Origin: a virus
Length of the DNA stretch: 23,102 nucleotides
IMG/VR virus record: IMGVR_UViG_3300021378_000174
Span: 1-23,102 of that record
Reading direction: 5' to 3' (one strand)
Part shown: positions 1 through 21,641 of the stretch, in pieces
Position numbering within the stretch: the stretch's first letter is position 1
Layout of the letters: each line of letters starts with the position of its first letter
The notes under the pieces: model-generated
The model's input: only the letters and a program-made list of their open reading frames with translations
The model's database searches: none
Told to the model about the DNA's origin: nothing
Program-made: the position numbers and the translations under genes

Positions 1-149
1 TCTTCTGAAATGTTTGATTCAATATTTAAAATTTTTGAAAGAATTTTTGTTTTTGTCTTAGCATCGCCCAAGCTAATGTTGTTCTCTTCTGCATACTCTC
101 TAAGTTCTTTTGCAGTTTTTAATGATAGATCTTCCATTATGTCTCCCAT
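1..149 (-). CDS. Partial small helical protein, SAP/Rho-N-like motif
   Basis: The 5' part of a gene that runs off the left edge; 49 codons are visible. The visible peptide is charged and helical and contains LSLKTAKELREYAEENNISL followed by a lysine-rich helix. This helix-turn-helix pattern resembles SAP, HeH or Rho N-terminal-like motifs, which phages often carry in small head-completion or DNA-binding proteins; that resemblance is by eye only. Two in-frame starts exist. ATG at 149 sits exactly 6 nt after a TGTTATAAT promoter, as in four other genes here, so it would be leaderless. ATG at 137 has GGGAG upstream. I chose 149 because of the promoter phasing. The gene follows the major capsid gene, where head-completion proteins are usual. 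Confidence 0.6.
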   Translation of the reverse strand, partial: MGDIMEDLSLKTAKELREYAEENNISLGDAKTKTKILSKILNIESNISE

Positions 150-155
150 TCTCTA

Positions 156-164
156 ATTATAACA
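156..164 (-). promoter_or_regulatory. Extended -10 promoter (TGTTATAAT)
   Basis: Minus strand reads TGTTATAAT, with a perfect -10 hexamer and the TG of an extended -10. The hexamer ends 6 nt before the ATG at 149, so the predicted start of transcription is the A of that ATG. It lies just after the hairpin that follows the capsid gene. Confidence 0.65.
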
Positions 165-177
165 GAATATAGCTGAA

Positions 178-203
178 GGGGCAGAGAACATTCTCCCTGC
201 CCC
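178..203 (-). terminator. GC-rich hairpin after the major capsid gene
   Basis: As minus-strand RNA this is an 11-bp stem (7 bp of GGGGCAG/CTGCCCC, then a G-U pair, two standard pairs and a further G-U) closed by a 4-nt loop. It lies between the capsid stop codon and the next promoter. The tail after the stem has only UU before mixed sequence, so it may be an inefficient terminator or a 3'-end stabiliser rather than a textbook intrinsic terminator. Confidence 0.6.
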
Positions 204-226
204 CACAAGCATTTTTTATTTAATTA

Positions 227-1357
227 TTAGGATGTTGCACCTGAAGCATCTGCGTAAGCAACTGCGTCAAGTTCTTCCCATGTAATTCCTAGACGGACGA
301 ATACTGTGTATTCGATTGTGTCCTTCTTGGCTTGGTACTCACGATTCACTGTGATATCGCGTTGGAATCCCCATACACGGTTCTGTGGGAATGTAAGATC
401 TACATAATCCGCAGGGTAGTAAGGAACCTCCATAACATCAATACCGAGGACACGAGTAGTGCGAGCACCACCGAATGTCTGTCCAGCGCCACCTAGGTAA
501 GCGTTGGTGTACTGATCTGTACCGCGTAGAGCAGGAGCAACAGCCTCTGCAATAGCGTCTGCAAGTGTTCCGTTGTTAGCAACGATACCAGCAAAGGCAT
601 CTGTTCCTGCATAGAACTTAAGACCGCTCTTTACAGCACGGTACTTGCGTGGCATTGCATAAATGATTTGCTGCATTACCTCTGGGGTCCAGTCGTTTCC
701 AGAAACAGAAACAACTGCTTGATGAGCATCAGATCCTGCTGTAACTTGGTTAACGAAACCGTCCCAAATTCCGAGGAATGGGTCAGCTCCACCGTCACCG
801 TTAATAGCCAAATCTTCGATATCGTTACCGAAAGCGTTGGTCATCAAACGGACAAGATGATCTTCAAGAGCACCTCCTTCAATGTTGTCCTCAAGGGACT
901 CTGTTGAAACTTCCCAGTCAAGACGGATCTTCTTTGTTGTAAGCTCCACCTTTGTGAAAGTTGCGCCAGCATTTGTGTAGCTGCCTTCTGCTTGTGCTGC
1001 TGCACGGATAACGCGCTCACCAACGTTGACCTTTTCGATCTCCATTGTATTTGCACGCATAGTTACCCTGCGTCCATCATTAGCAAGAACTGTTGCATCC
1101 CAAACATAATCGATAAAACGATTAGCCTGTTCTGGATTCAGGATACCTCCAGCAACACCTGTTGGGTTAACTGCGTTTGGTCCTGTTAGATCTCCGTAGT
1201 TAGCGGTTGGGATATTCCCAATTACACCAGCTCCTGGATCTGTTACTCCGCCAATATTACCTGCTGCAACGGCTCCTTGACCTTGGTATAGACCTGGTGC
1301 TGGATCTCCGTATCCGCTAGCTTCACTTGGCTGATTCTTTAAAATTTCTTCTGACAT
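227..1357 (-). CDS. Major capsid protein, HK97 fold
   Basis: Forms the icosahedral head shell. The protein is 376 residues from the chosen start. Its first 75 or so residues are rich in Gly, Pro and Ala, a plausible flexible or processed N-arm. The body then shows the pattern of phage major capsid proteins: NRFIDYVWDATVLANDGRRV near the start of the core, then EIEKVNVGERVI, an E-loop-like stretch, a long helix around LEDHLVRLMTNAFGNDIEDL, and a C-terminal strand QAKKDTIEYTVFVRLGITWE. The start at 1357 (MSEEILKN) is preferred over the ATG 18 nt upstream because a perfect GGAGGTGA ribosome site (1373-1366) sits 8 nt before it and overlaps the upstream ATG. It follows the protease-scaffold gene by 33 nt, the standard order for head genes. 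No clear promoter lies directly upstream. Confidence 0.93.
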   Translation of the reverse strand: MSEEILKNQPSEASGYGDPAPGLYQGQGAVAAGNIGGVTDPGAGVIGNIPTANYGDLTGPNAVNPTGVAGGILNPEQANRFIDYVWDATVLANDGRRVTMRANTMEIEKVNVGERVIRAAAQAEGSYTNAGATFTKVELTTKKIRLDWEVSTESLEDNIEGGALEDHLVRLMTNAFGNDIEDLAINGDGGADPFLGIWDGFVNQVTAGSDAHQAVVSVSGNDWTPEVMQQIIYAMPRKYRAVKSGLKFYAGTDAFAGIVANNGTLADAIAEAVAPALRGTDQYTNAYLGGAGQTFGGARTTRVLGIDVMEVPYYPADYVDLTFPQNRVWGFQRDITVNREYQAKKDTIEYTVFVRLGITWEELDAVAYADASGATS

Positions 1358-1390
1358 TGTATATTTCACCTCCATTTTTCTTTTTTATTA

Positions 1391-2716: not shown

Positions 2717-2726
2717 ATTAGTTCCT

Positions 2727-2734: not shown

Positions 2735-2751
2735 GCATTTTTATCAAATTG

Positions 2752-4757: not shown

Positions 4758-4766
4758 ATTATAGCA
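4758..4766 (-). promoter_or_regulatory. Extended -10 promoter (TGCTATAAT), leaderless spacing
   Basis: TGCTATAAT on the minus strand, ending 6 nt before the ATG at 4751, so the predicted first transcribed base is the A of ATG. A second TATAAT lies 10 nt upstream (4768-4773) and contains the TAA stop of the preceding LamG-like gene. Confidence 0.65.
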
Positions 4767-8452: not shown

Positions 8453-8461
8453 ATTATAGCA
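8453..8461 (-). promoter_or_regulatory. Extended -10 promoter (TGCTATAAT) for the LamG gene
   Basis: TGCTATAAT on the minus strand, 15 nt before the ATG at 8437. Predicted transcription start is near 8446, at the beginning of GGAGAG, giving a leader of about 9 nt that is essentially only a ribosome site. It directly abuts the hairpin that ends the reductase unit. Confidence 0.65.
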
Positions 8462-8492
8462 AAGCGGGGCAGCCTCAAACGCTACCCCGCTT
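8462..8492 (-). terminator. GC-rich hairpin after the reductase gene
   Basis: A perfect 8-bp stem (AAGCGGGG/CCCCGCTT), then one mismatch and 3 more pairs around a 7-nt loop, lying between the reductase stop and the next promoter. On the minus strand the stem ends in CUUU and runs straight into the next -10 element, so a long U-tract is missing. It probably separates the reductase transcript from the LamG transcript. Confidence 0.65.
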
Positions 8493-8505: not shown

Positions 8506-10449
8506 TTACGCAGAAACTAGGTCTACAACATCACATGCTCCAGCAGTACATGCTAATTCCTGTGAGCCAGTTGTTGTATCTTCTAGTTCATAAAGTGGAA
8601 GTGATTGCCAAGGAATATTCTCTGGCATTGATTTCACCGCTTTATTGTACTCTTCTTCTGTTATTTCTTGGTATGGCGCTTGTTTATAAGAATGCTCAGA
8701 CAATGGAAGGAATGAAACTCCACCAATTGAGTCAAAATTCTTAAACACCCAAGCACCTACATCTAACCATTCATCCTCTGCAACATTGATAGTTACAGAT
8801 GGATTATGCTCTGTCCAGTGTGTTCTATATGCTTTCCAAACTTCAAGATGATCAATTGCTGAAAGATCCTTTGTTACCGTAGCGTTATCTGGAGCCTTGA
8901 TTGGAAAATAGAAGACTGTAGTCATATCAGGCTTCATCACATCAGGTTCATTTGGAACACCAAAGTCCTTGAGGAATGCTGTTAGTGGATCTTTGTTGTC
9001 TGCACGAACAGAACGAATGTAGTACTTTGAATACCATGGATGAATACCAGAGGAGACTCCAGTTAATTGAGAAACTGTCCCTGAGGGCTTTACTGTTGTA
9101 ATTGCAGTAGAGTGGTTTATTCCAATCTTATCTGCTTCCTTGGCATTTTCGCTTACTGCAAGTTCTCTCATTTTATCAAGCATTGAATTAAGTTCTGGAT
9201 GAAGTGTTCCAGTCAACTTATTTCCAAAGATTCCTGTCAATGAAACTCCAAGCAGTCTTTCTTCTTCTGTATTTGTTTGCCATGTTTTACGAATGTACTT
9301 AAAGTTACTTAGAGTTGATTGCCAAGTACCAAGAATTGTAGCCAGACGGATCTTTGCGGATAGGGTTTTAACGGTATCTTCTGCATCGATAACTACCTCA
9401 GTCAGATTACAAAACTGATTAGCACGCAATAGAATCTCTCCACATGGATTTGTGCCAGCAACTTTTGAAGAGTCTCTACGATCAAACTTATCAATATGCT
9501 TACGAACAGCATCAAGATTGTAAATACCTCTTTCACCTGACTTTGACTCATAAAGGTTTCTCCATTCACGGAGGAACTGAGCAGTGTTTGGCTTTGAATT
9601 ATATACCGCTGAGTTGTTGGCGAGAGCACGCTGCCCTTCTGTTTCCCACCATTGACCACTCTTTGCCTTAGCCATTTCAAAGTCATCAAGGTTAGACAGG
9701 GAAATAAGTGCTGATCGGCGTACTCCACCTACAACAACAACTTCTCCAACCTTGCACATTAGGTCATGTGCCTCAATGGACTTGAGCCTACGACCTTTTG
9801 CAATAGAGAATGTTTCAACAGTAAACTTGAACAAATCATTAAGAGGCTCTGGCCCTGAAGCACGGCCTCCGAAAGTCTTTAGCCTTGCTCCTGATGGACG
9901 AACCTTTGACATATCCCATTCTGGAATCTGTCCTGTAACTAGAAGACCAATTAATTCCTTAAATGATTTTGCCCATCCTAATTTAGAATCTTCAACAACA
10001 ATGGTTGTATTTGTCTGAAACATCTCTTCTGCAACGATAGGAAGGTTCTCAATATATTTCTGTTCTACAGAAAAACCTACTCCTGTTCCATTCATCAAAA
10101 TATACATAGCCTCATCAAAGGCTCTGAGCGAATCTACGGCGATAAAAGAGCAATTGTATGCTGCGATATGGTCTCTTTCTAAAGCTGGCCCAGCTGTCAT
10201 CATGGCTCTCATAGAGGGCATTACCTTGTGACTAAGAATTGCATCTCTTACTTCTGCAAAAGTCTTATCTTTTTGTTCATACCCATAATTCTTTACGAGG
10301 TGATTTGTCATGAAGTCCATATAACGATCTACAGTTTCCACCCATGTCTCCCTCCTGCCTTTTTCTTCCAGCCAACGACTATACCTTGAAACATGAATAA
10401 AATTGCGGTATGGATCTGAAATTGATCCATTTTTGTTAATAAACGACAT
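8506..10449 (-). CDS. Adenosylcobalamin-dependent ribonucleoside-triphosphate reductase (class II)
   Basis: Reduces ribonucleotides to deoxyribonucleotides for phage DNA synthesis, using a B12 radical and needing no oxygen or second subunit. At 647 residues it is of the monomeric RTPR type, somewhat shorter than the Lactobacillus enzyme of about 740. Visible active-site parts are Cys100 (NCSF) and Cys347 (NQFCNLTE), the redox pair; the NPCGE motif with Asn334, thiyl-radical Cys336 and Glu338; VKPSGTVSQLTGVSSGIHPW, typical of class II enzymes; and the C-terminal swinging pair Cys634/Cys639 in ELACTAGACD. All expected catalytic residues are present, so the gene looks functional. The start is supported by AAAGGGTG 7-8 nt upstream and a good promoter. 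It stands alone, flanked by fibre and LamG genes. Phages often carry such enzymes, but usually in the replication region. Confidence 0.96.
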   Translation of the reverse strand: MSFINKNGSISDPYRNFIHVSRYSRWLEEKGRRETWVETVDRYMDFMTNHLVKNYGYEQKDKTFAEVRDAILSHKVMPSMRAMMTAGPALERDHIAAYNCSFIAVDSLRAFDEAMYILMNGTGVGFSVEQKYIENLPIVAEEMFQTNTTIVVEDSKLGWAKSFKELIGLLVTGQIPEWDMSKVRPSGARLKTFGGRASGPEPLNDLFKFTVETFSIAKGRRLKSIEAHDLMCKVGEVVVVGGVRRSALISLSNLDDFEMAKAKSGQWWETEGQRALANNSAVYNSKPNTAQFLREWRNLYESKSGERGIYNLDAVRKHIDKFDRRDSSKVAGTNPCGEILLRANQFCNLTEVVIDAEDTVKTLSAKIRLATILGTWQSTLSNFKYIRKTWQTNTEEERLLGVSLTGIFGNKLTGTLHPELNSMLDKMRELAVSENAKEADKIGINHSTAITTVKPSGTVSQLTGVSSGIHPWYSKYYIRSVRADNKDPLTAFLKDFGVPNEPDVMKPDMTTVFYFPIKAPDNATVTKDLSAIDHLEVWKAYRTHWTEHNPSVTINVAEDEWLDVGAWVFKNFDSIGGVSFLPLSEHSYKQAPYQEITEEEYNKAVKSMPENIPWQSLPLYELEDTTTGSQELACTAGACDVVDLVSA

Positions 10450-10597: not shown

Positions 10598-11446
10598 TTA
10601 TGCAATCCTATAAGCAACAATTACCGTTCCGCCGCCTCCGCTGCCACCACCAGAATAGTAAGAACTACCGCCACCGCCGCCACCACGGGTTCCAGCCGCT
10701 CCTGAACCGTTTCCAGACACCCCGTTGCCGCCACCGTGAGTGCCAGTTCCACCTGTTCCCCATGGTGAAGATCCGCCTCCACCTCCTCCGTAGCCCAGTG
10801 AAGTTCCGTTAATAGTGGATACGACACCTGTTCCACCTGTTCCACCCGTACCTGTATTTCCACCAGCAGCTTGACTACCATTTCCAGTAGACCCTCCACC
10901 ACCACCGCCTTGCTTACGGTCTGGTTCGGAACCATTGTTTCCATAGCCTCCTACGCCACCACCAGTAGTACCACCAGGAGGCCAAGAGTTTCCTCCAGTT
11001 CCACCCGAAGTCCAATATCCACCCGCTGAAGAGCAACAGTTTGCTCCAGGACCACCGCCACCAGCAGTTTGGCTAAATGCTGTAGTCGTTCCACCAGCAC
11101 CACCAGAACCTCCACCACCGCCAACAGCTATTGAATATGATGTTGTACTGAGTGTTATATCTGATCCAGAAATTATTCGACCACCTCCACCACCTCCACC
11201 AGCAATTCGATCTGGATTAACTGAAGAGCCACCTGGTCCACCACCTGCGCCACCACCAACAATAAGATAGTTAAATGTTTTAAGCGCACTTGTAACAGTA
11301 AAAGTGCCACTATCAGTAAATGTGTGAATCTTCCATGTTTCACCAGTACCATTGTAATTAGCTACAGTTGTTTCAGTACCACCAATAGCAGCATTAAATC
11401 TACTACGTCTTTTAGAAACAGCAAATCCAAAACTAGCTAATGTCAT
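10598..11446 (-). CDS. Glycine-rich tail-fibre adhesin
   Basis: A 282-residue protein probably at a tail-fibre tip. An N-terminal beta module (TVANYNGTGETWKIHTFTDS, then GTFTVTSALKTFNYLIV) leads into a long Gly/Ser/Asn-rich region with many runs of 4-7 glycines, and it ends in a strand GGGGTVIVAYRIA. This matches the shape of glycine-rich phage adhesins, in which parallel polyglycine-II helices pack into a sandwich (known for gp38 of phage S16). Shared motifs with the other glycine-rich proteins here include TINGTSLGYGGGGGG and TSYSIAVGGGGG. A CC pair (GANCCSSAGG) is present. The ATG overlaps the stop of the 111-residue gene (ATGA), so the two are coupled. Receptor specificity cannot be read from sequence. 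Confidence 0.85.
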   Translation of the reverse strand: MTLASFGFAVSKRRSRFNAAIGGTETTVANYNGTGETWKIHTFTDSGTFTVTSALKTFNYLIVGGGAGGGPGGSSVNPDRIAGGGGGGGRIISGSDITLSTTSYSIAVGGGGGSGGAGGTTTAFSQTAGGGGPGANCCSSAGGYWTSGGTGGNSWPPGGTTGGGVGGYGNNGSEPDRKQGGGGGGSTGNGSQAAGGNTGTGGTGGTGVVSTINGTSLGYGGGGGGSSPWGTGGTGTHGGGNGVSGNGSGAAGTRGGGGGGSSYYSGGGSGGGGTVIVAYRIA

Positions 11447-11795: not shown

Positions 11796-11804
11796 ATTAT
11801 ACCA
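11796..11804 (-). promoter_or_regulatory. Extended -10 promoter (TGGTATAAT)
   Basis: Minus-strand TGGTATAAT, 17 nt before the ATG at 11778. Predicted transcript begins GAGGAGTTAAT then ATG, an 11-nt leader that starts with the ribosome site. Confidence 0.65.
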
Positions 11805-11844: not shown

Positions 11845-12636
11845 TTATATTTCCCATCTCAACATTACTATTCCAGAACCACCCAGACCTCTTGCGCCAG
11901 TTGTTGTGGAGCCTCCTCCGCCTGCACCTGTATTTGCTACAGCGTTTCCGCCACCGCCTGATCCAGATATTCCGTTTACGCCACCACTGGCTCCATAGGC
12001 TGCACTGCCACCGCCAGAACCTCCAGCAGCATACCAACTTAGAGTTCCATCAAAATTACTTTGTACTCCCTCACCTCCAGGGGCTGATCCGTTTGCTGAG
12101 TTTCCATTTTGCGTGTACCCACCTCCACCGCCGCCGCCAGCATGGTATTCATTTGTTCCAGATCCAGGAGAGAACCAATTTGCTGAGTATCCTCCAGTGG
12201 CGGTTCCTCCAACACGGCCTCCTTTTAACAAAACTCCAAAAGCGGAAGAATCTTGACCATTAGAATTTGAAACCCCTTGCCCAACAGTTATAGTGTGGGT
12301 TCCTGCTGGTATAAAGATTGATGCTCCCCCAGAAACTGTGGTATCGTGAATATCTCCTGCGCCACCGCCACCGCCGCCTCTGGATGTGCTTCCTGAGTTG
12401 TATCCTCCACCACCAGAACCCCCTGCGCTTAAAACAAAAAGATCTGCATAGCCCTCTTCTTCAACAACAAGGCTTCCGCTTGATAAAAATTTTACCAATC
12501 TATAATTTTTTCCATTGCCAAAGGGGTTTGTTAGGGTAGAAAAAGTAGCATTACTGCTTGCCCCTTCATCTACAGTAACTGTGGGAGCACCACCAGTATT
12601 TACCCAAGCTGCTCCGTCAAAAACTTTTAAAGGCAT
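11845..12636 (-). CDS. Glycine-rich tail-fibre adhesin
   Basis: A 263-residue member of the glycine-rich adhesin set. The N-terminus MPLKVFDGAAWVNTG resembles a fibre-attachment tag. Then come a beta module (KNYRLVKFLSSGSLVVEEEG, YADLFVLSAGGSGGGG), IPAGTHTITVGQG, glycine-rich loops, ANTGAGGGGS and the closing strand GGSGIVMLRWEI. The start at 12636 is chosen over an ATG 15 nt further upstream because it forms a TAATG overlap with the stop of the preceding fibre gene, the coupling style used repeatedly here, and because the protein then begins at the recognisable FDGAAWV motif. It probably acts at the distal end of a fibre together with the coupled 169-residue protein. Confidence 0.85.
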   Translation of the reverse strand: MPLKVFDGAAWVNTGGAPTVTVDEGASSNATFSTLTNPFGNGKNYRLVKFLSSGSLVVEEEGYADLFVLSAGGSGGGGYNSGSTSRGGGGGGAGDIHDTTVSGGASIFIPAGTHTITVGQGVSNSNGQDSSAFGVLLKGGRVGGTATGGYSANWFSPGSGTNEYHAGGGGGGGYTQNGNSANGSAPGGEGVQSNFDGTLSWYAAGGSGGGSAAYGASGGVNGISGSGGGGNAVANTGAGGGGSTTTGARGLGGSGIVMLRWEI

Positions 12637-13145
12637 TAGGCAGACCACCACATATCATAAGCTTCAGCATTAACTGGTTCTGCACTTCCAATCCAGTATG
12701 CCGCTCCAATTCCTGTTGGTCTTGCATAGTTTGCATCTGTTCCATGATTAACTATTATCATAGATTCTGACTTTAATCCATCTACCAGTGAATCAACTGC
12801 TGTTTGGGTATAGGTATTAGCTACTTCATATGTATCAGAAGCAACTACAACCAAAATATCATTTAGTGTTGCTCCAGATGTAATAGTTACAGATGTTCCA
12901 TTTAAAGCAGAGTAATCTAATGATGGAGTAAGAAGCACTCCATTTAAAAACACCTCTACTGCCCCCACGGTATAAGATAAGGTTAAAGAATTATCATCTA
13001 CCCCAGAAAAAAATGTCTGAGAAGATGTAGCAGTATAGACATAGGTAGTTACAAAGGCAAGTGCTTGTGCACCCACAGGATACCAAGTATCTTCACCTTC
13101 ATCATACACATATGCTGGTCTGGCTGTTGTACTTATAGTTGTCAT
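12636..13145 (-). CDS. Tail-fibre protein with beta-knob domain
   Basis: A 169-residue protein. It opens with TARPAYVYDEGEDTWYPVGA, a short repeat common in fibre proteins of cyanophages and other aquatic phages. The middle, TFFSGVDDNSLTLSYTVGAV then EVFLNGVLLTPSLDYSALNG and SVTITSGATLNDILVVVASD, is a beta domain I recognise from marine-phage structural proteins. A short helix (AVDSLVDGLKSE) and GAAYWIGSAEPVNAEAYDMW end the chain. It starts with SD GAGGATG under a TGATATAAT promoter and its stop overlaps the ATG of a glycine-rich adhesin, so it probably forms the shaft to which that adhesin attaches. Confidence 0.8.
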   Translation of the reverse strand: MTTISTTARPAYVYDEGEDTWYPVGAQALAFVTTYVYTATSSQTFFSGVDDNSLTLSYTVGAVEVFLNGVLLTPSLDYSALNGTSVTITSGATLNDILVVVASDTYEVANTYTQTAVDSLVDGLKSESMIIVNHGTDANYARPTGIGAAYWIGSAEPVNAEAYDMWWSA

Positions 13146-13160: not shown

Positions 13161-13191
13161 ATTATATCATGTAGATCGATAAAGTATATCA
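13161..13191 (-). promoter_or_regulatory. Tandem extended -10 elements
   Basis: Two copies on the minus strand, TGATATACT (13183-13191) and TGATATAAT (13161-13169), 22 bp apart, about two helical turns. The TGA stop codon of the upstream fibre gene is the first three bases of the outer element. The inner element predicts a transcript starting GAGGATGAT then ATG. Confidence 0.6.
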
Positions 13192-14148
13192 TGCACCCAT
13201 TAAAAAGAATGGGTTTACTCCTGCTCCAGAAAGCATTTCATCTATCTGTATCTTAGTGTAAAAATCAGTAGCGTTAAGCATTTCTGCTTCGCCATTCTTG
13301 TCTACCCACAGCGTACCATTTCTAAGGTCTACTGTTGGAGCTTCATCTTGATAAACGATAGTTCCGCTTCCGCCTTCTGATACTGCTTCAACAACGTATG
13401 CGGTTGTAGCAATCTTCGTGCTGTTGTCTAAAGGAGCTGGAGTTGTTGATGTTGGAGTTCCAGTAAGTGCTGGGGAATCAGAAAGAACCGCATTTCCTGT
13501 TCCCGTAGAAGTCGTTACCCCTGTTCCACCACTTGTCACAGGAAGAGTTCCCGAAACATGTGTGGTCAAACCTACCTTACCATATGATGGAGCCACTCCA
13601 ACCCCACCAGATATTAAAGCATTTCCTGTTGCTATCCCTGATAATTTTGCCAAAACGGTAGATCCAGAGGCATAAACAATGTCTCCTACTGAGTAAGAGG
13701 TTAATCCAGTTCCACCTTTGTTTACAGCAATTGTTGTTGCATTCCAGGTACCTGTTGCAATAGCTCCAACACTAGTTAAACTTGAGGAAACAACTGAAGA
13801 CCCTAGAGTGGTTGCAGTCAGTACTGAAACGTTGTTAATTTCATATTTTTTTCCTGTTGCAACATTCACATCTCCGACAAAATTTACCTGACCAGACGCA
13901 TTTCCAATATTTACTGCTGTTGCTGCTCCACCAATGTTCAGAGTAGTAGCATTGGTGTTAAATAGATTTGCACTTACTGCATCTGTTACAAGACTTCCGC
14001 CATCAATTGCTAGGTTATTTATAAATGCTGGGGCAGTTAAAAAAGCATCAATATCATCTGCAAGACTTTTTATATCCCCCGCAACATTTACTGGATCTGT
14101 AGGTACTGGATATGCTAAAGAATAATTAGATGTAGAGCCACTAGACAT
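13189..14148 (-). CDS. Tail fibre with T4/cyanophage-type repeats
   Basis: A 319-residue fibre protein. After an N-terminal YSLAYPVPTDPVNVAGDIKS (a common fibre-start motif) come short beta repeats (TLNIGGAATAVNIGNASGQV), then TGTWNATTIAVNKGGTGLTS and YSVGDIVYASG, and later VTSGGTGVTTSTGTGNAVLS and DSPALTGTPTSTTPAPLDNS-TKIATTAYV. The last two are classic repeats in long tail fibres of T4-like and cyanophages. The end carries GTLWVDKNGEAEMLN and a short helix. It has a promoter with leaderless spacing and no ribosome site, and no coupling to the next gene. The trimeric shaft role is inferred from these repeats. Confidence 0.88.
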   Translation of the reverse strand: MSSGSTSNYSLAYPVPTDPVNVAGDIKSLADDIDAFLTAPAFINNLAIDGGSLVTDAVSANLFNTNATTLNIGGAATAVNIGNASGQVNFVGDVNVATGKKYEINNVSVLTATTLGSSVVSSSLTSVGAIATGTWNATTIAVNKGGTGLTSYSVGDIVYASGSTVLAKLSGIATGNALISGGVGVAPSYGKVGLTTHVSGTLPVTSGGTGVTTSTGTGNAVLSDSPALTGTPTSTTPAPLDNSTKIATTAYVVEAVSEGGSGTIVYQDEAPTVDLRNGTLWVDKNGEAEMLNATDFYTKIQIDEMLSGAGVNPFFLMGA

Positions 14149-14154: not shown

Positions 14155-14163
14155 ATTATAGCA
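14155..14163 (-). promoter_or_regulatory. Extended -10 promoter (TGCTATAAT), leaderless spacing
   Basis: Minus-strand TGCTATAAT ends 6 nt before the ATG at 14148, so the predicted first base is the A of ATG. No Shine-Dalgarno sequence is present. Confidence 0.65.
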
Positions 14164-14170: not shown

Positions 14171-14204
14171 AAAAGACAAATACCCCACAAATTATGTAGG
14201 GTAT
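14171..14204 (-). terminator. Intrinsic terminator after the 86-residue gene
   Basis: Stem ATACCC/GGGTAT (14180-14185 with 14199-14204), one mismatch, then ACA/TGT around a 5-nt loop. On the minus strand it is followed by UUUGUCUUUU, the best U-rich tail of the three hairpins here. It separates the MAHAAKI gene from the next fibre promoter. Confidence 0.7.
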
Positions 14205-14225
14205 CGTCAAATTATATCTATAACT

Positions 14226-14510: not shown

Positions 14511-14519
14511 ATTTTATCA
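14511..14519 (-). promoter_or_regulatory. Extended -10-like promoter (TGATAAAAT)
   Basis: A 5/6 hexamer with TG one base upstream on the minus strand, 24 nt before the ATG at 14486. The predicted leader is about 18 nt, A-rich, and includes AAGGAGGA. Confidence 0.5.
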
Positions 14520-14523: not shown

Positions 14524-16179
14524 TTAGTCTATTGGGTAGCGGATAATTACAATGCCTGAGCCGCCGTTGCCTCCAGTCCCAAGGCTATAATTACCACCGC
14601 CACCACCACCTGTATTTGCTGTACCTGCTGTGCTAGGTGCAGATCCACCACCACCATTTCCTCCTGCTCCACTGGGAGCACCACCACCTCCGCCTGCACG
14701 GAAAACTGCAGACCCAGTAATAGAATTAGAAACACCTACTCCTCCAGCTCCACCGCTATTACCACCTACGGAACCAGCTCCTCCGCCGCCGCCGCCTGCA
14801 TTGCTGCTACTCGAACCTCCGTTGTTGCCAATACCAGAAACTCCAAGACCTCCAGAAGATGCTCCACTTGTTCCACCAGCGCCTCCGCCAGATGAACCAT
14901 TTAAACCAGCACTTGTTGAGTTTGCACTTGTATCACCAGCGCCTCCGCCACCGCCAGGAGCATAATAATTTCCCAAACGCGAGGCTTCTCCATTTTGTCC
15001 AGCTCCATTTCTTCCCTGTGGACCTCCTCCAGCACCACCAGCGCCTATGGTAACGGTAAAGGCTCCTGCTTTCAAAAAGGTACTAGGAATATAAACATGG
15101 CCTCCTGCTCCACCACCACCAGCGCGCTCTCTTCCACCACCACCGCCACCACCCTGAACAAGAACATCCACAAACCCTTGAGCATTCACACTCAACGAAC
15201 CAGACGAAGTAAACGAATGAACCTTGTAGGTTTTACCTGCAACACCATTAGAACCATCAGCGACATACGTTGTTTCCGTTCCACCAGACGCTGCTACACC
15301 CGCTGCTGAACCACCAATAATGGTACGGACAATGACAACACCAGAACCGCCAGCACCACTACTACCACTTCCTGAAGTTGCACCACCACCGCCTCCCGTA
15401 TTTGCTGTACCACTTGTTCCAGTCCCTGTTGATGATGCGGCTCCACCTCCCCCTAAACCACCAGACCCTGCTCCGCTAGCAGGAGAAGAACCACCCCCAC
15501 CACCGCCATAAGTAACTGATGAACCAGTAATAGAATCAGCAACACCATTTCCACCACTACCACCAACAGCAGTTGTAGCATTTGCTCCTACGGTTCCTGT
15601 TCCACCTCCGCCGCCACCAGCTCTATCATTAGTCGCTCCACCAATTCCATTACCACCATTTTGACCAAAACCAACCCCTAAACCTCCTAAAGTAAAGCCT
15701 GAACCACCTGAACCACCACCACCACAACTACCACCGGGTTGTCCTAAAGGAGCGCCAGATGCTGCTAAACCTAATCCGCCAAACGGTGCTATTAAATCTA
15801 AGAAAGAAGATGTATTACCCTTTATTCCATCCTGTAATGCTCCAGAAACTCCAGCACCACCAGCACCAACAGTAACAGTGTGGGTTCCTCCGGGAATAAA
15901 GTAATTACTTACTGAAATTATTCCACCAGCGCCGCCACCGCCAGCACCGCCGTCAGTTCGTTTAGCCCCACCAGCGCCGCCGCCAACAACAACTACATCA
16001 ACTACACCAGACGACTGCACAACCAGCGAATCAGAAGACGTAAACGTCCTCACCTCATACGTCACACCACCATCCGTGTATGTAGTACGAGTGCCACCGC
16101 TAGAAATCTGTGCGAACCTACCCGCTGTAGGAATATCTGATCCTGCACCAAGTGCTGTTGATAGTTTAGAAATAGTCAT
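14524..16179 (-). CDS. Tandem glycine-rich adhesin (two modules)
   Basis: A 551-residue protein made of two glycine-rich modules in one chain. Module 1 spans about residues 33-286: TTYTDGGVTYEVRTFTSSDS, VVDVVVVGGGAGG, GGTHTVTVGAGGAG, DSITGSSVTYGGGGGGS, TANTGGGGGA and GGSGVVIVR. Module 2 spans about 300-548 with the same order: TTYVADGS, KTYKVHSFTSSGSLSV, VDVLVQGGGGGGG, GAFTVTIGAGGAGG, NSITGSAVFRAGGGGG, TANTGGGGGG and GGSGIVIIRYP. Each module would form a beta cap plus polyglycine-II sandwich. The ATG overlaps the stop of the preceding glycine-rich gene (TAATG). The duplication suggests unequal recombination between adhesin copies. The product is probably a receptor-binding fibre tip. Confidence 0.87.
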   Translation of the reverse strand: MTISKLSTALGAGSDIPTAGRFAQISSGGTRTTYTDGGVTYEVRTFTSSDSLVVQSSGVVDVVVVGGGAGGAKRTDGGAGGGGAGGIISVSNYFIPGGTHTVTVGAGGAGVSGALQDGIKGNTSSFLDLIAPFGGLGLAASGAPLGQPGGSCGGGGSGGSGFTLGGLGVGFGQNGGNGIGGATNDRAGGGGGGTGTVGANATTAVGGSGGNGVADSITGSSVTYGGGGGGSSPASGAGSGGLGGGGAASSTGTGTSGTANTGGGGGATSGSGSSGAGGSGVVIVRTIIGGSAAGVAASGGTETTYVADGSNGVAGKTYKVHSFTSSGSLSVNAQGFVDVLVQGGGGGGGRERAGGGGAGGHVYIPSTFLKAGAFTVTIGAGGAGGGPQGRNGAGQNGEASRLGNYYAPGGGGGAGDTSANSTSAGLNGSSGGGAGGTSGASSGGLGVSGIGNNGGSSSSNAGGGGGGAGSVGGNSGGAGGVGVSNSITGSAVFRAGGGGGAPSGAGGNGGGGSAPSTAGTANTGGGGGGNYSLGTGGNGGSGIVIIRYPID

Positions 16180-17030
16180 TAGTTAGTCCTCACTCGTACG
16201 ATAATTACACCAGAGCCGCCGAGTTTTCCTGTAGAAGTAGCACCACCGCCACCACCACCTGTGTTTGCTGTTCCATTGGCGTTGCCTGCTCCACCACCAC
16301 CAGCACCGCCAGCGCCATTAGATCCAGCCGAGTAACCCTTAGAGCCACCACCACCACCAGCGTAAGTTACTGCCGAACCAGTAATGCTCGAACTAATGCC
16401 AGCAGCACCAGCGCCACCATTACTTCCTGATCCAGCAGAACCCTTTGCGCTCGCGCCACCTCCGCCACCGCCACCAGCATTGATATCAGCCTGTGTCGAA
16501 CCAGTTCCACCAGAGTACCCGCGTTGATTGCCGCCATTGACGATCAACGGCTGGAGAGTTTGCCCTGCATAAGATCCACCAGAACTGCCACCCATACTGC
16601 CGCCAACACGCGGTCCTGAGTTGGTTCCACCACCACGACCACCACCATACTCAGAAAGACTTAACAATCCTGACGGACTACCCTCAGACATCGCGCTTCC
16701 ACCAGCGCCAATAGTAACAGCTATGCTTCCTTCGGGCAAATAAACATCGCTGTATTCCCAAATTGAGCCAGCACCGCCACCACCACCATTCTGGAACGAA
16801 CTACTTGGACTGCTGTTAGTTCCACCACCACCACCACCAGCGATAATTAATATATCTGCAATACCAGCAGCAGTTACGGTAAGGGTTTCTGTGCTAAGAA
16901 AAGAAACGTATTTGTAGTTCACACCTCCGTCTGTGTAAGTGCCAGTCGGTGTATTAGAAAAGTCAGCACTAGAAATAAAATTAGTATTAGTATTAGGTAA
17001 ACCTGCTTGACTAAAAGATTGTATAGCCAT
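16179..17030 (-). CDS. Glycine-rich tail-fibre adhesin
   Basis: A 283-residue adhesin of the same type: N-terminal tag MAIQSFSQAGLPNTNTNFIS, beta module TYTDGGVNYKYVSFLSTETL followed by IADILIIAGGGGGG, GSIAVTIGAGGS, glycine-rich loops, SSITGSAVTYAGGGGGS, TANTGGGGGG and a closing strand GGSGVIIVRVRTN. It starts only 3 nt after the stop of the 110-residue protein and has no clear ribosome site, so translation probably depends on coupling. Its own stop overlaps the ATG of the 551-residue tandem adhesin. The three genes form one unit: small beta protein, single module, double module. Confidence 0.85.
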   Translation of the reverse strand: MAIQSFSQAGLPNTNTNFISSADFSNTPTGTYTDGGVNYKYVSFLSTETLTVTAAGIADILIIAGGGGGGTNSSPSSSFQNGGGGGAGSIWEYSDVYLPEGSIAVTIGAGGSAMSEGSPSGLLSLSEYGGGRGGGTNSGPRVGGSMGGSSGGSYAGQTLQPLIVNGGNQRGYSGGTGSTQADINAGGGGGGGASAKGSAGSGSNGGAGAAGISSSITGSAVTYAGGGGGSKGYSAGSNGAGGAGGGGAGNANGTANTGGGGGGATSTGKLGGSGVIIVRVRTN

Positions 17031-17033
17031 TTT

Positions 17034-17383: not shown

Positions 17384-17392
17384 ATTATATCA
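17384..17392 (-). promoter_or_regulatory. Extended -10 promoter (TGATATAAT)
   Basis: Minus-strand TGATATAAT. A start about 7 nt downstream of the hexamer gives a transcript beginning GGAGGAATAAA then ATG, an 11-nt leader starting with a strong ribosome site. Confidence 0.65.
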
Positions 17393-17409: not shown

Positions 17410-18387
17410 TTATAAGTAAATTTTTAAACTTCCAAGGTAGGCAGTTCCGTTATTTGATGAAAGCGGCGACTCTTCATAATCTACCATTGCTTGAAGAGCA
17501 CCAGATCCATAGCTTATATCTAATCCGCCCAAATAACTTGAATAATCCCAAGTATACCAAAAAACATACCTGCCTCCAGCGTAGTCTAGAGTTTGACTAA
17601 CATAATCATATCCATCAACGTCATCGATAATATCTCCAAATGGTACATTATAATTTGTCTCTGTTATCCATAATTTAGATGGTGCTCCATATGCTGTAAT
17701 TGCATCTAAAACATCTCCAAGATATTCATTCCACTTTTCAGGACCTGTACCGTTTTCTGGATAAATATGGCAAGTTACTCTATCTACGGGCCAGCCTTTG
17801 TCTTGTAGTGCTGACCACCATAGTCCACCTCTTGTCATGCCCCCGCTTGATGTCCTTGGAAGAACTGAAGCAGCTAGAACAAGTGCATCTGAATCAATAC
17901 TCTTTATAGTGTTATAGGCTCTCTGAGTCATTCTTGCAAGAGCCTCTCTCATTGTAGAATCCCAAGGATATAAAAAATCTGCGAGCTGAGGTTCATTCCA
18001 AATTTCATATGCCTTTATTTTTCCTTTATATCTTGTTGCAAGCTCCCATATAAATTTATTCCATTCATCATACCCATTAGAATATGTAGTTCCATATCCA
18101 TCTATGCCACCAGAAGAAGATGGTAGAGAGTTTGAACCTACACCTATCCACTCTGCAGCATTTTCCTGATCTGGATCTCTAGCTATCCATTGTGGACATC
18201 CACCTATTGTAAAAACTATATTCTTTCCTACATAAACTTCATCAATCAAATAATCAAGCCTTGTCCAATCATATACATCTACTCCTAAGTGTATCTGTCT
18301 CCAATATGTTTGATTGTCCCAAAATCTTATCCAAGATATTTGAGATGGTACTGAAAAATTGTCCTCATTAAAATGCATTCCGATCAT
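17410..18387 (-). CDS. Clan GH-A (GH39-like) glycoside hydrolase
   Basis: A 325-residue TIM-barrel glycosidase. Diagnostic motifs are KAYEIWNEPQ with acid/base Glu132 preceded by Asn131, and KLWITETNYN with nucleophile Glu243, the Asn-Glu plus Glu arrangement of clan GH-A retaining enzymes. Supporting elements are an early WIRFWDNQTYW strand, VFTIGGCPQWIA (residues 58-69) and VTCHIYPENG (205-212), a His at a position often conserved in this clan. The general pattern is closest, by eye, to GH39 and its relatives; the exact family and substrate are not determined. There is no signal peptide or lytic-transglycosylase feature. It starts 2 nt after the stop of the MAHFAKID gene and ends the five-gene unit begun at 20301, so it is probably a virion-associated depolymerase acting on host capsule or surface polysaccharide. 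Confidence 0.85.
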   Translation of the reverse strand: MIGMHFNEDNFSVPSQISWIRFWDNQTYWRQIHLGVDVYDWTRLDYLIDEVYVGKNIVFTIGGCPQWIARDPDQENAAEWIGVGSNSLPSSSGGIDGYGTTYSNGYDEWNKFIWELATRYKGKIKAYEIWNEPQLADFLYPWDSTMREALARMTQRAYNTIKSIDSDALVLAASVLPRTSSGGMTRGGLWWSALQDKGWPVDRVTCHIYPENGTGPEKWNEYLGDVLDAITAYGAPSKLWITETNYNVPFGDIIDDVDGYDYVSQTLDYAGGRYVFWYTWDYSSYLGGLDISYGSGALQAMVDYEESPLSSNNGTAYLGSLKIYL

Positions 18388-18389
18388 TG

Positions 18390-18743
18390 CTATACATCCT
18401 CTAATGGATATGGTGGTGGATTATCTATTCCTTCAGCCCATTTATTTTTGGGTGGTATCCATCTCATAAGTTCTTCATTCCAAAAACACTCTTCATGTGG
18501 TTTTTCTTCATTATAGAAACAATCTCTCGTTTTATCCCATATAGATCCAATTGATGCTACATTTTTCCTAAAATTATTATTATATGAAGTTTGAATCCAT
18601 TTTCCAACAAATCCATTATCATTTAAATATTTCTCGCCTATTGAATCTGCATCTGGATAATCTTTTCCATCTAAAAATTCATTATCTACTACAATCACAT
18701 CAATAACTTTGTTATTTTTATCTATTTTAGCAAAATGTGCCAT
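18390..18743 (-). CDS. Small MAH-AKI family phage protein (paralogue 2)
   Basis: A 117-residue protein, MAHFAKIDKNNKVIDVIVVD, then GFVGKWIQTSYNNNFRKNVA, SIGSIWDKTRDCFYNEEKPH and a longer tail with WIPPKNKWAEGIDNPPPYPL. It belongs to the same family as the 86-residue protein at 14226-14486 but is longer, and matches the full-length form I know from cyanophages more closely. The ATG overlaps the stop of the upstream glycine-rich adhesin (TAATG), and the glycosidase gene starts 2 nt after its stop. Function is unknown; repeated placement after a glycine-rich adhesin suggests an accessory role in adhesin assembly or in the fibre. Confidence 0.82.
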   Translation of the reverse strand: MAHFAKIDKNNKVIDVIVVDNEFLDGKDYPDADSIGEKYLNDNGFVGKWIQTSYNNNFRKNVASIGSIWDKTRDCFYNEEKPHEECFWNEELMRWIPPKNKWAEGIDNPPPYPLEDV

Positions 18744-19471
18744 TAGACCTTCACCCTTATTAATACTATTCCACTATTTCCACTTGTACCGTTATTCCCA
18801 CCATTTCCAGTATTTGCTGTCATTGGCTTTCCAGCATTTCCTCCACAACCAAGCTCTCCTGGTGAACCCCATTGAGATCCTGGATTATATCCTACACCAT
18901 TTCCATCTCCAGCTACTCCTCCAGCAGCACCATTTCTACTATCACAATTACCTCCACGCATTTGTGCGCCGATTCTTCCTTGATAATACATACCTGAAGA
19001 TGGAGCTCCTATACCAGAATTTGAGTATGATGAACCACAAGCACCTCCACCACACATTCTATCCCTATACTGAGCTCCAGGAGCTCCACCAACCGATGCT
19101 ATTCCATAAAACTCAGAAGTTCCTGCTGGATGGGACATAGATAAATAGGTTGCTGTTCCTGTTCCAACCCTAATAGGCCAAGTACCTTCTGGGATATACA
19201 AACTTGTCCTTTCCACTTGACCCCCGCCACCTCCAGCACCTCCAGCACCATCTACAACGTTTCCAGCTCCCCCACCACCTTGAACTAAAGCATCTAGGAC
19301 TCCGCCCGATGATATTGTAACCGATCCTGCTCCAGTAAATTTATACACAACATAGCTATCTGAACCTATAGTTACATTTGTGGTTGATGATGCAGTACTT
19401 GATGAAATTATAGCAGGCTGATCTGCGCCGCCAATTCTAATTTCTCCCAAATATAACTTTGTGCTGGTCAT
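18743..19471 (-). CDS. Cysteine-containing glycine-rich adhesin
   Basis: A 242-residue adhesin with the same plan as its paralogues: N-terminal TSTKLYLGEIRIGG, beta module (SDSYVVYKFTGAGSVTISSG, VLDALVQGGGGAG), IPEGTWPIRVGTG, loops, TANTGNGGNNG and closing GNSGIVLIRVKV. It is less glycine-dense than the others and has four cysteines (RMCGGGACGS, GGNCDS, ELGCGG), which the other modules mostly lack; disulphides or a metal site are possible but unproven. The ATG overlaps the upstream stop (TAATG), so it is translated with the 276-residue fibre protein. Confidence 0.83.
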   Translation of the reverse strand: MTSTKLYLGEIRIGGADQPAIISSSTASSTTNVTIGSDSYVVYKFTGAGSVTISSGGVLDALVQGGGGAGNVVDGAGGAGGGGGQVERTSLYIPEGTWPIRVGTGTATYLSMSHPAGTSEFYGIASVGGAPGAQYRDRMCGGGACGSSYSNSGIGAPSSGMYYQGRIGAQMRGGNCDSRNGAAGGVAGDGNGVGYNPGSQWGSPGELGCGGNAGKPMTANTGNGGNNGTSGNSGIVLIRVKV

Positions 19472-20301
19472 TATGGTGTCACCACATATAAGGTAGCAGG
19501 ATCTTTGGTTACAATTGCATCATATTCTGCCTGAGTTAAAGCAATAATACTAGAAACTCCGTCTCCAGTTACTTTTTCAGAAAGGAATGATGATATTGTT
19601 GATACCCAATTACTTCCAGTATATACGAATGTTTCAAGGGTATCGCTGTCTACCCATAGATTTCCTGTTGCTGGGTTGGTTGGGGCATCTGATGAATAGG
19701 ACGATCCTCCCAAAATTTCATGACCATCATAATAAAATTTACCATCCTTGTTTACCCAAGATAGGGCAGTTCCTGATGAATTCTGCCATTCTTGAATATT
19801 TGCTGTCTGAGATGATTGAGATCTTACTGTTATGCCTTTGTGTAATGCATTTCCTAAAACTATATTTAAACCAGTAGTCGTTGCTTGGGTTATTGATCCA
19901 AGAGTTAGGTATCCAGCTAAATTCATGTTTCCCGCTATTCCAATTCCACCAACACTTACAGATGAAGAATTTTGCCATTGCTGCAATGGAGCAGTTTGAG
20001 ATGATATAGCCCTTATTGTAATAGGTATTGTTGTTGTTGATTGTCCAGTAAGTATGTTTGGGGTTAAGGTTTGAGAAATAAGTTCTACATAAGATCCACT
20101 TAATCCAGAAAGCTGAGATTCAGCAGTGGACAACCTTGTGTCAATTCCTCTAAAATTTCCCTCAATACTATCATCTGGAATTTCTTCAGTAGACCAATCA
20201 TCTACTCCATAATGATAGACTTTTAAAGCTTCAACGATTGTTGCATCGTCTGATAATGTCGGTATACGACTTTTATATTGAAATCCTACTGGTTGAGACA
20301 T
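19471..20301 (-). CDS. Tail-fibre protein with internal repeat
   Basis: A 276-residue fibre protein. Residues about 90-125 and 150-185 carry a repeated segment: TIRAISSQTAPLQQWQNSSS and TVRSQSSQTANIQEWQNSSG. It continues with VNKDGKFYYDGHEILGG, the common fibre motif DAPTNPATGNLWVDSDTLET, and a C-terminal LTQAEYDAIVTKDPATLYVV, a short ending found on many phage fibre proteins. The N-terminus (YKSRIPTLSDDATIVEALKV) may dock to the tail. It has its own promoter and an AGGTGA ribosome site and leads a coupled unit: fibre, glycine-rich adhesin, MAHFAKID protein, glycosidase. Confidence 0.84.
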   Translation of the reverse strand: MSQPVGFQYKSRIPTLSDDATIVEALKVYHYGVDDWSTEEIPDDSIEGNFRGIDTRLSTAESQLSGLSGSYVELISQTLTPNILTGQSTTTIPITIRAISSQTAPLQQWQNSSSVSVGGIGIAGNMNLAGYLTLGSITQATTTGLNIVLGNALHKGITVRSQSSQTANIQEWQNSSGTALSWVNKDGKFYYDGHEILGGSSYSSDAPTNPATGNLWVDSDTLETFVYTGSNWVSTISSFLSEKVTGDGVSSIIALTQAEYDAIVTKDPATLYVVTP

Positions 20302-20317
20302 ATAATCACCTACTAGA

Positions 20318-20326
20318 ATTATACCA
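20318..20326 (-). promoter_or_regulatory. Extended -10 promoter (TGGTATAAT)
   Basis: Minus-strand TGGTATAAT. The TAA inside the hexamer is also the stop codon of the upstream gene. The predicted transcript begins AGGTGATTAT then ATG, a 10-nt leader that starts with the ribosome site. Confidence 0.65.
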
Positions 20327-20909
20327 CTGTGATAAGAGTAGCAATATCAATTGCTTCTGAATCTAACGCTGTCCAGCTACCGCCAGAATATTTAATTCCT
20401 TCAATGGCTATTAATAAATTTGATCCTGAAACAGTTTGAGAGTTTATTGTCAGAACAATTGGGTCTGATCCTATTGGAGTTAAATTAACTACATAAGAAT
20501 ATGGACCAGAAACTACCACCCCTAAAGGAATAATATCTGATGTAGGTATACTCATTGTGGCTGTTCCTGCCGTAAAAATTTCTTCAACATTCCTGCTATA
20601 TATTGGAGGAGACAATCTAAGCACTTGATCCCAGTTATCTCCAGAAATCTTTGGATTATAAATATAAAGCCATCCGTAGTTTGCTCCTGCGGCTGTATTT
20701 ATATATACATCTCCATCTACGGGGACAACAACATCTCCAAATACGTTTTCTGATACCGTAACATCATTTGGATTACCAGAACCTGCATAAAACGTTGCCC
20801 CTCTTTGGCCCTGTGGACCAAAATCAACACCAACATCGATTACTGATGGCGGTGCAAAGACAACTATGTCATCAGAATTAACTACAACATCAAAAACGTT
20901 TGCTGTCAT
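20319..20909 (-). CDS. Fibre-like protein with a collagen-type motif
   Basis: A 196-residue beta-rich protein. Residues about 30-40 contain GPQGQRG, a minimal Gly-X-Y collagen-like stretch often seen in phage fibre proteins just before a module like GSGNPND, which occurs here. Then come VDGDVYINTAAGANYGWLYI and YNPKISGDNWDQVLRL, followed by strands. The ATG overlaps the stop of the preceding 117-residue gene (ATGA), so they are co-translated. A baseplate or fibre role is inferred from these motifs; no enzymatic feature is visible. Confidence 0.78.
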   Translation of the reverse strand: MTANVFDVVVNSDDIVVFAPPSVIDVGVDFGPQGQRGATFYAGSGNPNDVTVSENVFGDVVVPVDGDVYINTAAGANYGWLYIYNPKISGDNWDQVLRLSPPIYSRNVEEIFTAGTATMSIPTSDIIPLGVVVSGPYSYVVNLTPIGSDPIVLTINSQTVSGSNLLIAIEGIKYSGGSWTALDSEAIDIATLITVV

Positions 20910-21259
20910 GGTGTAGTGATATCTCCTGTAACGGATATCGTTCCTGTTAGAAGTGTATAAACTATATTAGCATTTTCTTTATCTTGAATAGAAACATCAT
21001 AGTAGTAAGTTGTTCCTGGAGTTAAGGAGTTTCCAACATCTGGTCTTATTTCACAGGTAACTGAATTGTCTCCAATTGCCGTACTTCCTTCTTGAGTGCT
21101 ACCAGATGAACCATTTCTAGAAGTTGAAATTCTAAAATAAGCGTCATACGTTGTATCATCTACTGGGTAAATATCTCCTGCAGTAGTTTTTGGACGGATT
21201 ACAAATTGATAAAGATCACCTTTGTAATATCTAATATTATAATTTCCTGGAAATGACAT
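20906..21259 (-). CDS. Small Ig-like/BppU-N-like structural protein
   Basis: A 117-residue protein: YNIRYYKGDLYQFVIRPKTT, then DDTTYDAYFRIST, NSVTCEIRPDVGNSLTPGTT and YYYDVSIQDKENANIVYTLL, ending GTISVTG. The order (GD-x-x-x-F strand, T-Y-x-A-x-x-R-I strand, L-T-P-G-x-x-Y-Y-Y-D-V strand) resembles the N-terminal Ig-like domain of baseplate upper proteins such as BppU. That is a pattern match, not a confirmed homology. It has a leaderless promoter and is coupled by ATGA to the collagen-motif protein. Confidence 0.76.
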   Translation of the reverse strand: MSFPGNYNIRYYKGDLYQFVIRPKTTAGDIYPVDDTTYDAYFRISTSRNGSSGSTQEGSTAIGDNSVTCEIRPDVGNSLTPGTTYYYDVSIQDKENANIVYTLLTGTISVTGDITTP

Positions 21260-21265
21260 ATCTTT

Positions 21266-21274
21266 ATTATATCA
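21266..21274 (-). promoter_or_regulatory. Extended -10 promoter (TGATATAAT), leaderless spacing
   Basis: Minus-strand TGATATAAT ends 6 nt before the ATG at 21259; the predicted first base is the A of ATG. It begins 2 nt after the stop codon of the upstream gene. Confidence 0.65.
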
Positions 21275-21275
21275 T

Positions 21276-21626
21276 CTAGGAAACTCTATTAACATATCCA
21301 GCAATGTTTATAACATCTGCTGTACCAGCAAAAGCTCTAACAACAAGGCTGTTTTGAAGTATCAATCCTGGAGATATTAATATTAATCCAGACTCTCCTG
21401 AAATCGTTATTTCTATGTTGTCAGTATTTGCAGTAGTTCCTCCATACTCCATAGTTAGCTTTACTGAAGATGCTGAAGAATTCGTGGCATATATCCACAA
21501 TTCATCTATTGATGATGTTCCAGATACTGCTGTATGAATTATTGTTCCAGGGGTGGATGTTGCAGAAACCGCAATCATCTTACCGTTGGTAGATCCTGAA
21601 AGAGGTAGTTTTGAAAAAGTAGCCAT
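21276..21626 (-). CDS. Small beta-rich structural protein
   Basis: A 116-residue protein: MATFSKLPLSGSTNGKMIAV, then strands GTIIHTAVSGTSSIDELWIY, SSASSVKLTMEYGGTTANTD, NIEITISGESGLILISPGLI and SLVVRAFAGTADVINIAGYV. It is a compact beta sandwich, similar in length and pattern to the 110-residue protein at 17034-17366 and perhaps its distant paralogue. No enzymatic motif is seen. It is transcribed as a single-gene unit from a leaderless promoter and follows the lectin-glycine-rich protein gene. Confidence 0.72.
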   Translation of the reverse strand: MATFSKLPLSGSTNGKMIAVSATSTPGTIIHTAVSGTSSIDELWIYATNSSASSVKLTMEYGGTTANTDNIEITISGESGLILISPGLILQNSLVVRAFAGTADVINIAGYVNRVS

Positions 21627-21632
21627 AACAAA

Positions 21633-21641
21633 ATTATACCA
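21633..21641 (-). promoter_or_regulatory. Extended -10 promoter (TGGTATAAT), leaderless spacing
   Basis: Minus-strand TGGTATAAT ends 6 nt before the ATG at 21626; no ribosome site is present. Confidence 0.65.

Follow-up and report, generated by a model that had tools for sequence, protein, structure and literature searches.

How are the genes of a long, one-directional structural block supplied with their transcripts? The question is raised by the IMG/VR virus record IMGVR_UViG_3300021378_000174, whose 23,102 bases form the window, i.e. the whole stretch of DNA analysed here and the complete virus record. All of its 23 called genes lie on the minus strand. Pfam matches identify a capsid, a protease, a portal and a B12-type ribonucleotide reductase, and the remainder includes a long series of tail-fibre-like and glycine-rich genes. 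An earlier model-made reading of the letters (the sequence-only reading) had noticed the extended -10 promoter motif TGnTATAAT, or close variants, at 13 minus-strand sites between these genes. The main point which it overlooked is that the motif keeps two spacings from the start codon: 6 nucleotides (nt) without a Shine-Dalgarno (SD) sequence, and 15-17 nt with one. Probably, these sites are host sigma-A-type extended -10 promoters, one before nearly every uncoupled gene, each serving 1-4 genes and leaving little or no leader on the message.

All 13 sites could be confirmed: ten are exact, two (10486 and 14511) are one-base variants and one (2727) has a shifted TG. The TGn and the TATAAT follow each other along the direction of the genes, as in a sigma-A-type extended -10 promoter. 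Over the entire window the exact motif occurs 11 times, always on the minus strand; in 100 shuffles the mean was 1.9 and the maximum 5. When one mismatch is allowed, the excess becomes small, with 48 copies against a shuffle mean of 36.6 and 48 being reached in 3 of the 100 shuffles. A generic two-box sigma-70 scan of the window gave no excess because the sites have no -35 element. The signal thus resides in the exact motif and its placement. The latter was assessed in co-directional gaps not shorter than 12 nt, to each of which 9 nt of the upstream gene were added. Nine of the 13 such gaps in the window contain the exact motif in the sense orientation and none in the antisense orientation (200 shuffles: mean 0.21, maximum 2). 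Site 156 was excluded from this count because its downstream gene leaves the window, while 20318, which straddles the upstream stop codon, was included. Among the four other gaps, that of the capsid gene has no motif and those of 2727, 10486 and 14511 contain the variants. Nine more starts overlap the upstream stop codon or lie 2-3 nt past it, in agreement with the earlier statement that genes without the motif are mostly coupled. The sites split the window into units of 1-4 genes. The eleventh exact copy (19407-19415, TGCTATAAT) lies within a gene and before no start; a similar in-gene copy is present in one relative (L010).

The enrichment before starts extends to the relatives. In six long relatives (533 kb), 276 gaps contain 87 sense and 0 antisense exact copies, with a shuffle mean of 3.5 and a maximum of 10. 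Of the 80 loci from a portal search, 43 nearly duplicated one another or the window and were dropped; the 37 that were left carry 120 coding-strand copies and just 2 copies in the opposite orientation. The window and the six relatives together have 134 exact sites: 110 between genes, 19 inside genes on the same strand and 5 inside genes on the opposite strand. The proposal that the motif serves fibre parts in particular had to be abandoned. It is found genome-wide in the six relatives (34/85 structural-region gaps and 49/191 elsewhere; odds ratio 1.9, p = 0.02), and it also precedes head genes and the reductase gene.

The two registers can be read directly from the window (all coordinates refer to the minus strand). 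Five of the 13 sites have no SD, and exactly 6 nt separate the end of the hexamer from the ATG. These are 156-164 (TGTTATAAT, before ATG 149 of a gene that leaves the window), 4758-4766 (TGCTATAAT, before ATG 4751 of a gene of 122 amino acids that is translationally coupled to the portal gene), 14155-14163 (TGCTATAAT, before ATG 14148), 21266-21274 (TGATATAAT, before ATG 21259) and 21633-21641 (TGGTATAAT, before ATG 21626). All five messages are predicted to be leaderless. In five other sites the hexamer ends 15-17 nt before the ATG and an SD lies in between: 8453-8461 (TGCTATAAT, 15 nt before ATG 8437 of a 1222-amino-acid gene, SD AGGAG), 11796-11804 (TGGTATAAT, 17 nt before ATG 11778, SD AGGAG), 13161-13169 (TGATATAAT, 15 nt before ATG 13145, SD AGGA), 17384-17392 (TGATATAAT, 17 nt before ATG 17366, SD GGAGG) and 20318-20326 (TGGTATAAT across the upstream stop codon, 16 nt before ATG 20301, SD AGGTGA). 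The remaining three sites each have an SD of at least 4 nt. At 2727-2734 (TGTATAAT) the TG directly abuts the hexamer TATAAT, 10 nt ahead of the ATG (2716) of the protease gene; the variant TGATAAAAT at 14511-14519 lies 24 nt before ATG 14486 (SD AAAGGAGG), and the variant TGCTATACT at 10486-10494 lies 36 nt before the reductase ATG at 10449 (SD AAAGG). By base count, an RNA that starts at the seventh base after the hexamer would have a leader of 0 nt in the 6-nt class and of 9-11 nt in the 15-17 class.

Two details accompany these sites. After the 156 promoter two in-frame ATGs occur (137-149), and a relative (L013) has an ATG at exactly 6 nt with the conserved protein start directly after it. 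A second promoter-like sequence, TGATATACT (13183, in the stretch 13161-13191), lies 22 nt ahead of the 13161 site and overlaps with the stop codon of the upstream gene.

Dereplication removed 13 of the 134 exact sites, leaving 121. Among these, an SD was found in 0/23 sites at 6 nt, 0/12 at 7-10 nt and 0/5 below 6 nt, and in 21/22 at 15-18 nt, 17/18 at 19-35 nt and 6/9 beyond 35 nt. Since this test sees only the stretch between hexamer and ATG, a gene-side test without motif preselection was added. It comprised 664 called genes, 332 of them with a gap of at least 12 nt, and a hexamer was scored at five or more of six matches. In the gapped genes without SD (n = 132) the hexamer stands at exactly 6 nt in 38 cases, with a few at most other distances. 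In those whose SD spans 5 nt or more (n = 130) it peaks at 15, 16 and 17 nt (7, 9 and 17 genes); another 6 genes in total have it between 1 and 14 nt, and 7 have it at 0 nt. In the full set of 664 genes, 45/249 SD-less starts have the hexamer at 6 nt vs 12/415 starts with an SD (p = 5e-11). Judged by sequence, the 6-nt genes have the features of an actinobacterial leaderless gene, namely a hexamer end 6 nt before the start and no SD. The base preceding the ATG is a pyrimidine in 15/21 sites of the 6-nt class, and in 17/20 sites of the 15-18 class the SD starts 5-8 nt downstream of the hexamer. At the start sites of Mycobacterium tuberculosis, position +1 is preferentially a purine, -1 a pyrimidine and +2 a T (PMC3898074). 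The pyrimidine and the SD position would, indirectly, fit a start about 7 nt after the hexamer.

The phage itself can be placed with some precision. Among isolated phages, its portal and capsid are nearest to Streptomyces phages of about 130 kb (45-47% and 43-45% identity, respectively). BoomerJR and Faust are classified in the Stanwilliamsviridae; their portals are 46-47% identical to that of the window, they share the order portal-protease-capsid and a reductase gene lies near. The 23 kb window fragment thus has homologous portal, protease and capsid genes in the same order as this family, and by these comparisons the window phage is related to the Streptomyces phages of the Stanwilliamsviridae. 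WhiB, an actinobacterial marker (PMC10202952), is encoded by 6/9 long relatives, and the sole match among bacterial genomes was a contig, holding a relative, of a metagenome-assembled genome named Actinomycetota bacterium. Together with the portal and capsid kinship, this points to an actinobacterial host.

The sites are conserved gene by gene (orthologs were left out when the alignment covered less than 60% of the query or the start was displaced by over 33 nt). Protease orthologs have the hexamer at 8-10 nt in 35/36 cases (43-96% identity), BoomerJR being the exception. TGn plus hexamer precede 28/40 orthologs of the 122-amino-acid gene, 11 of which have TATAAT at 6 nt and 17 TATACT at 7 nt; the two Streptomyces orthologs scored without hexamer have one at 6 and 7 nt when the annotated starts are used. 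A TGn -10 precedes 27/27 orthologs of the 1222-amino-acid gene: 19 have it 15-18 nt before the start together with an SD, and 8 have TAAAAT at a distance of 9 nt. Reductase orthologs have a TGn site at 34-36 nt in 8/14, although remote members may be paralogs. The TGn -10 stands at 6 nt in 5/5 orthologs of gene 13189-14148, at 16 nt in 2/2 of gene 19471-20301 and at 6 nt in 2/4 of gene 20906-21259. No TGn -10 was seen in the orthologs of coupled genes (portal 0/40; 20319-20909 0/5). Site, spacing and even off-consensus letters are thus kept per gene, with hexamer and spacing conserved down to 31-43% protein identity. Strand bias, placement and this conservation support the interpretation of the motif as a promoter, and by every sequence test applied the promoters are real and their layout is conserved. 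The suggestion of individually tuned expression is supported in part: particular genes have an off-consensus hexamer and a spacing of their own that recur across relatives, e.g. TATACT in 7 of the 8 reductase orthologs with a TGn site, as would be expected if every gene maintained its own promoter strength.

The structural blocks of the Streptomyces phages, taken with annotated starts, show a similar picture. BoomerJR has the hexamer at 6 nt before 4/12 gapped genes and at 10 nt before one more; Faust has it at 6-8 nt before 5/13, and in both there are additional genes with a hexamer farther upstream plus an SD. Several of the genes with a hexamer at 6-8 nt are orthologs or neighbours of those in the window. 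Examples of the 6-nt class are genes 47, 48, 54 and 64 of BoomerJR and 32 and 42 of Faust. Unlike the window phage, the two have a guanine-plus-cytosine content of about 47-48%, a less regular TGn and a weak genome-wide signal with our own gene caller. In the controls, SD-less starts with a 6-nt hexamer numbered 1/8 in 50 kb of T4 and 0/16 in 50 kb of SPO1, both small samples. Based on these sequences, the layout stands out clearly in the aquatic relatives and, among the Streptomyces cousins, in the structural block; this is the extent to which it has been shown.

Upstream of the -10, little is held in common. A partial -35 at 17 nt was found in 12 of 97 intergenic sites vs 4.6 in shuffles, as in a sigma-A-type extended -10 promoter with a dispensable or weak -35. 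No conserved box was seen at -16 to -65 in the 97 sites, nor in the 45 nt preceding 67 dereplicated sites from structural regions. A T4-type middle promoter, whose activator box lies some 30 nt ahead of the start, was considered and rejected in the absence of conserved upstream columns, and the same two sets of sites revealed no MotA-like or other conserved upstream box. Hairpins are a recurrent feature. Fourteen of the 97 sites lie directly behind a hairpin of -18 kcal/mol or lower, and 21/97 upstream stretches fold more than 2 standard deviations below their own shuffles. In the window, where five sites were folded singly, hairpins precede 8453 (8464-8490, terminator-like and abutting the promoter), 14155 (14175-14208, terminator-like and just upstream) and 156 (172-210, directly upstream; the 50 nt fold at -25.2 kcal/mol); at 13161 the hairpin is weak and 10486 has none. 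The hairpin before 8453 was compared over ten loci with five distinct stem sequences: nine canonical pairs are kept, three of them covarying by changes on both sides. Most hairpins have no long T run; they may nevertheless end transcription ahead of the promoters.

From these data the following mechanism is proposed. The RNA polymerase of an actinobacterial host would read an extended -10 before nearly all genes that lack translational coupling to a neighbour. In the 6-nt register the RNA would start at the A of the ATG, and the resulting leaderless mRNA would be translated by the leaderless route common in Actinobacteria. In the 15-17 nt register it would start at or beside the initial base of the SD, so that the leader, about 9-11 nt long, would consist of hardly more than SD and spacer. 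A smaller set at 8-10 nt would be nearly leaderless. Some units would be insulated by the hairpin directly before the promoter, and the dosage of each gene would probably be set by hexamer, register and SD strength. The capsid gene, behind an 8-nt SD, would be carried on the protease unit.

Several observations weigh against this proposal. The exact-site SD test has little room for an SD at 6 nt, and it omits the 31/121 sites without a called start 0-60 nt downstream as well as one site at 12 nt. Fifty gapped SD-less genes have no hexamer, so the register scheme is not universal, and 12 genes with an SD have a hexamer at 6-7 nt. The 97 intergenic sites display no informative upstream column and no conserved -35; with neither a -35 nor an activator box conserved, promoter strength and timing are left unexplained. 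Genome-wide and with our own gene caller, a 6-nt hexamer precedes just 1/39 SD-less starts in Faust (whole genome) and 3/27 in BoomerJR (92 kb). Finally, the related loci are not independent of one another.

The layout could also be explained otherwise. A few strong upstream promoters might read the whole block, the TATAAT copies being a tolerated AT-rich spacer. The gaps are indeed short and AT-rich, the two-box scan was without excess, and the late genes of the mycobacteriophage Adephagia are read from about one start (PMC11373665). However, a spacer would hardly yield 87 sense and no antisense copies in the relatives' gaps against a shuffle mean of 3.5, nor sharply preferred distances, hexamers conserved between remote proteins or hairpins between units, and this explanation is considered very improbable. 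Somewhat less remote, yet still unlikely, is the use of the -10 together with a phage factor that replaces the contacts of sigma region 4 and times late expression. T4 middle promoters, which combine an extended -10 with a MotA box, are the model for such an arrangement. The missing -35, the timing that late genes require and the occurrence of the same motif outside the structural region would suit it; the lack of any conserved upstream box in both sets of sites speaks against it. So does the failure to find Sigma70_r4 in the 9 long records, which are possibly incomplete, and where other sigma domains, phage RNA polymerases and other activators were not sought.

The 6-nt genes could, furthermore, be translated by reinitiation on read-through mRNA, their promoters being minor. 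This would agree with the starts at 4751, 21259 and 21626, which lie just 16-23 nt past an upstream stop codon. The exact 6-nt spacing nonetheless recurs at unlinked genes and in relatives, and at 14155 and 156 a hairpin separates the upstream gene from the start. Reinitiation is therefore judged improbable, and leaderless initiation from a promoter of their own is preferred for these genes. A more speculative extension, to which we give only a small chance, is that virion assembly draws on two translation channels, with leaderless mRNAs for low-copy parts, start-at-SD messages for others and the capsid on its 8-nt SD. If so, a shift in how host ribosomes handle leaderless messages during infection would alter particle stoichiometry, and the clade-wise register switches of the 1222-amino-acid gene (15-18 nt vs 9 nt) would be evolved dosage changes.

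Among the closest known counterparts are the leaderless SigA genes of M. tuberculosis, in which a TANNNT -10 lies near the start codon without conserved -35 or SD (PMC3898074). There, 26% of the genes with a primary start site are leaderless, and TGn is linked to higher activity (PMC3898074). Differences are that TGn marks just 7% of the TANNNT boxes of that bacterium (PMC3898074), that its starts were mapped and those of the window phage are predicted, and that late virion genes are involved here. Among the phage hexamers with at least five matches, TGn precedes 33/57 at 6 nt vs 89/324 elsewhere. Cluster O mycobacteriophages such as Corndog have predicted leaderless SigA promoters whose predicted +1 is the first base of the start codon (PMC4351075). 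As described there, these are three (PL1, PR2 and PL2) of 8-9 promoters per genome and do not stand before most uncoupled structural genes. The SAS and ESAS of cluster K are likewise repeated elements before start codons, and the ESAS holds a SigA-like promoter; unlike the present motif, it spans 46-47 bp, has a -35 and an inverted repeat and occurs in 7 copies (PMC11373665). In Adephagia, a member of this cluster, one gene, 90, is predicted to be leaderless (PMC11373665). Single similar cases are thus already known from Corndog and Adephagia gene 90. No paper on the present layout was found in the open-access literature, subscription papers and preprints being outside that coverage.

The remark that a multitude of late promoters is unusual for a phage proved half right. 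It fits Adephagia with its nearly single late start. T4 has dozens of late promoters, which consist of a -10 motif only, TATAAATA. This motif occurs 5 times in the window, once on the plus strand, and at none of the 13 sites; a T4-type late promoter was rejected. AR9 has 118 late promoters, and AR9 and phiKZ resemble the window in their many late promoters and many short units (PMC5312081). Theirs are read by phage RNA polymerases, and AR9 leaders measure 26-491 nt; the phiKZ late motif is TATG with the G as start, and phage transcripts are often leaderless according to the same source (PMC5312081).

The capsid gene had been singled out as the exception, having neither motif nor coupling. It indeed has no TGn -10 of its own, nor have its orthologs (0/23). 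The case is softened by a conserved start at 1357 behind an 8-nt SD, GGAGGTGA, which lies inside the longest open reading frame (start 1375). The relatives put the start at codon 7 of this frame, directly behind the SD (1357-1382), and the start at 1375 is probably wrong. A GGAGGTG-like sequence is found upstream of the start in most of the capsid orthologs listed. The capsid gene of Faust has a strong SD and no hexamer, and that of BoomerJR a strong SD and no hexamer nearer than 30 nt.

The window offers a concrete, conserved case of promoter placement and translation initiation forming one unit in a lytic phage lineage, and leaderless messages are predicted for its virion genes. Such knowledge may improve start-codon annotation, e.g. 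of the capsid gene, and provide short portable promoter parts for Actinobacteria. The compact layout can be tested in isolated Streptomyces phages, the cultivable relatives.

A few minor observations concern the gene content. A transfer RNA scan of the window gave no hit, and Rfam no match at the gathering threshold. For the gene starting near 12651, the GTG at that position is a less likely start than the ATG in the TAATG overlap with the upstream stop codon (12636-12651). The protein of 17410-18387 contains a WNEPQ stretch and has no Pfam or PHROG match at 0.001. This stretch is reminiscent of glycoside hydrolases. The B12-type ribonucleotide reductase gene (8506-10449) lies within the structural block, and BoomerJR gene 45 and Faust gene 20 have a comparable position. 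The glycine-rich fibre-like proteins at 10598-11446, 11845-12651, 14524-17030, 18743-19471 and 21650-22825 are mutually similar and have few clear orthologs in the relatives, which suggests a fast turnover.

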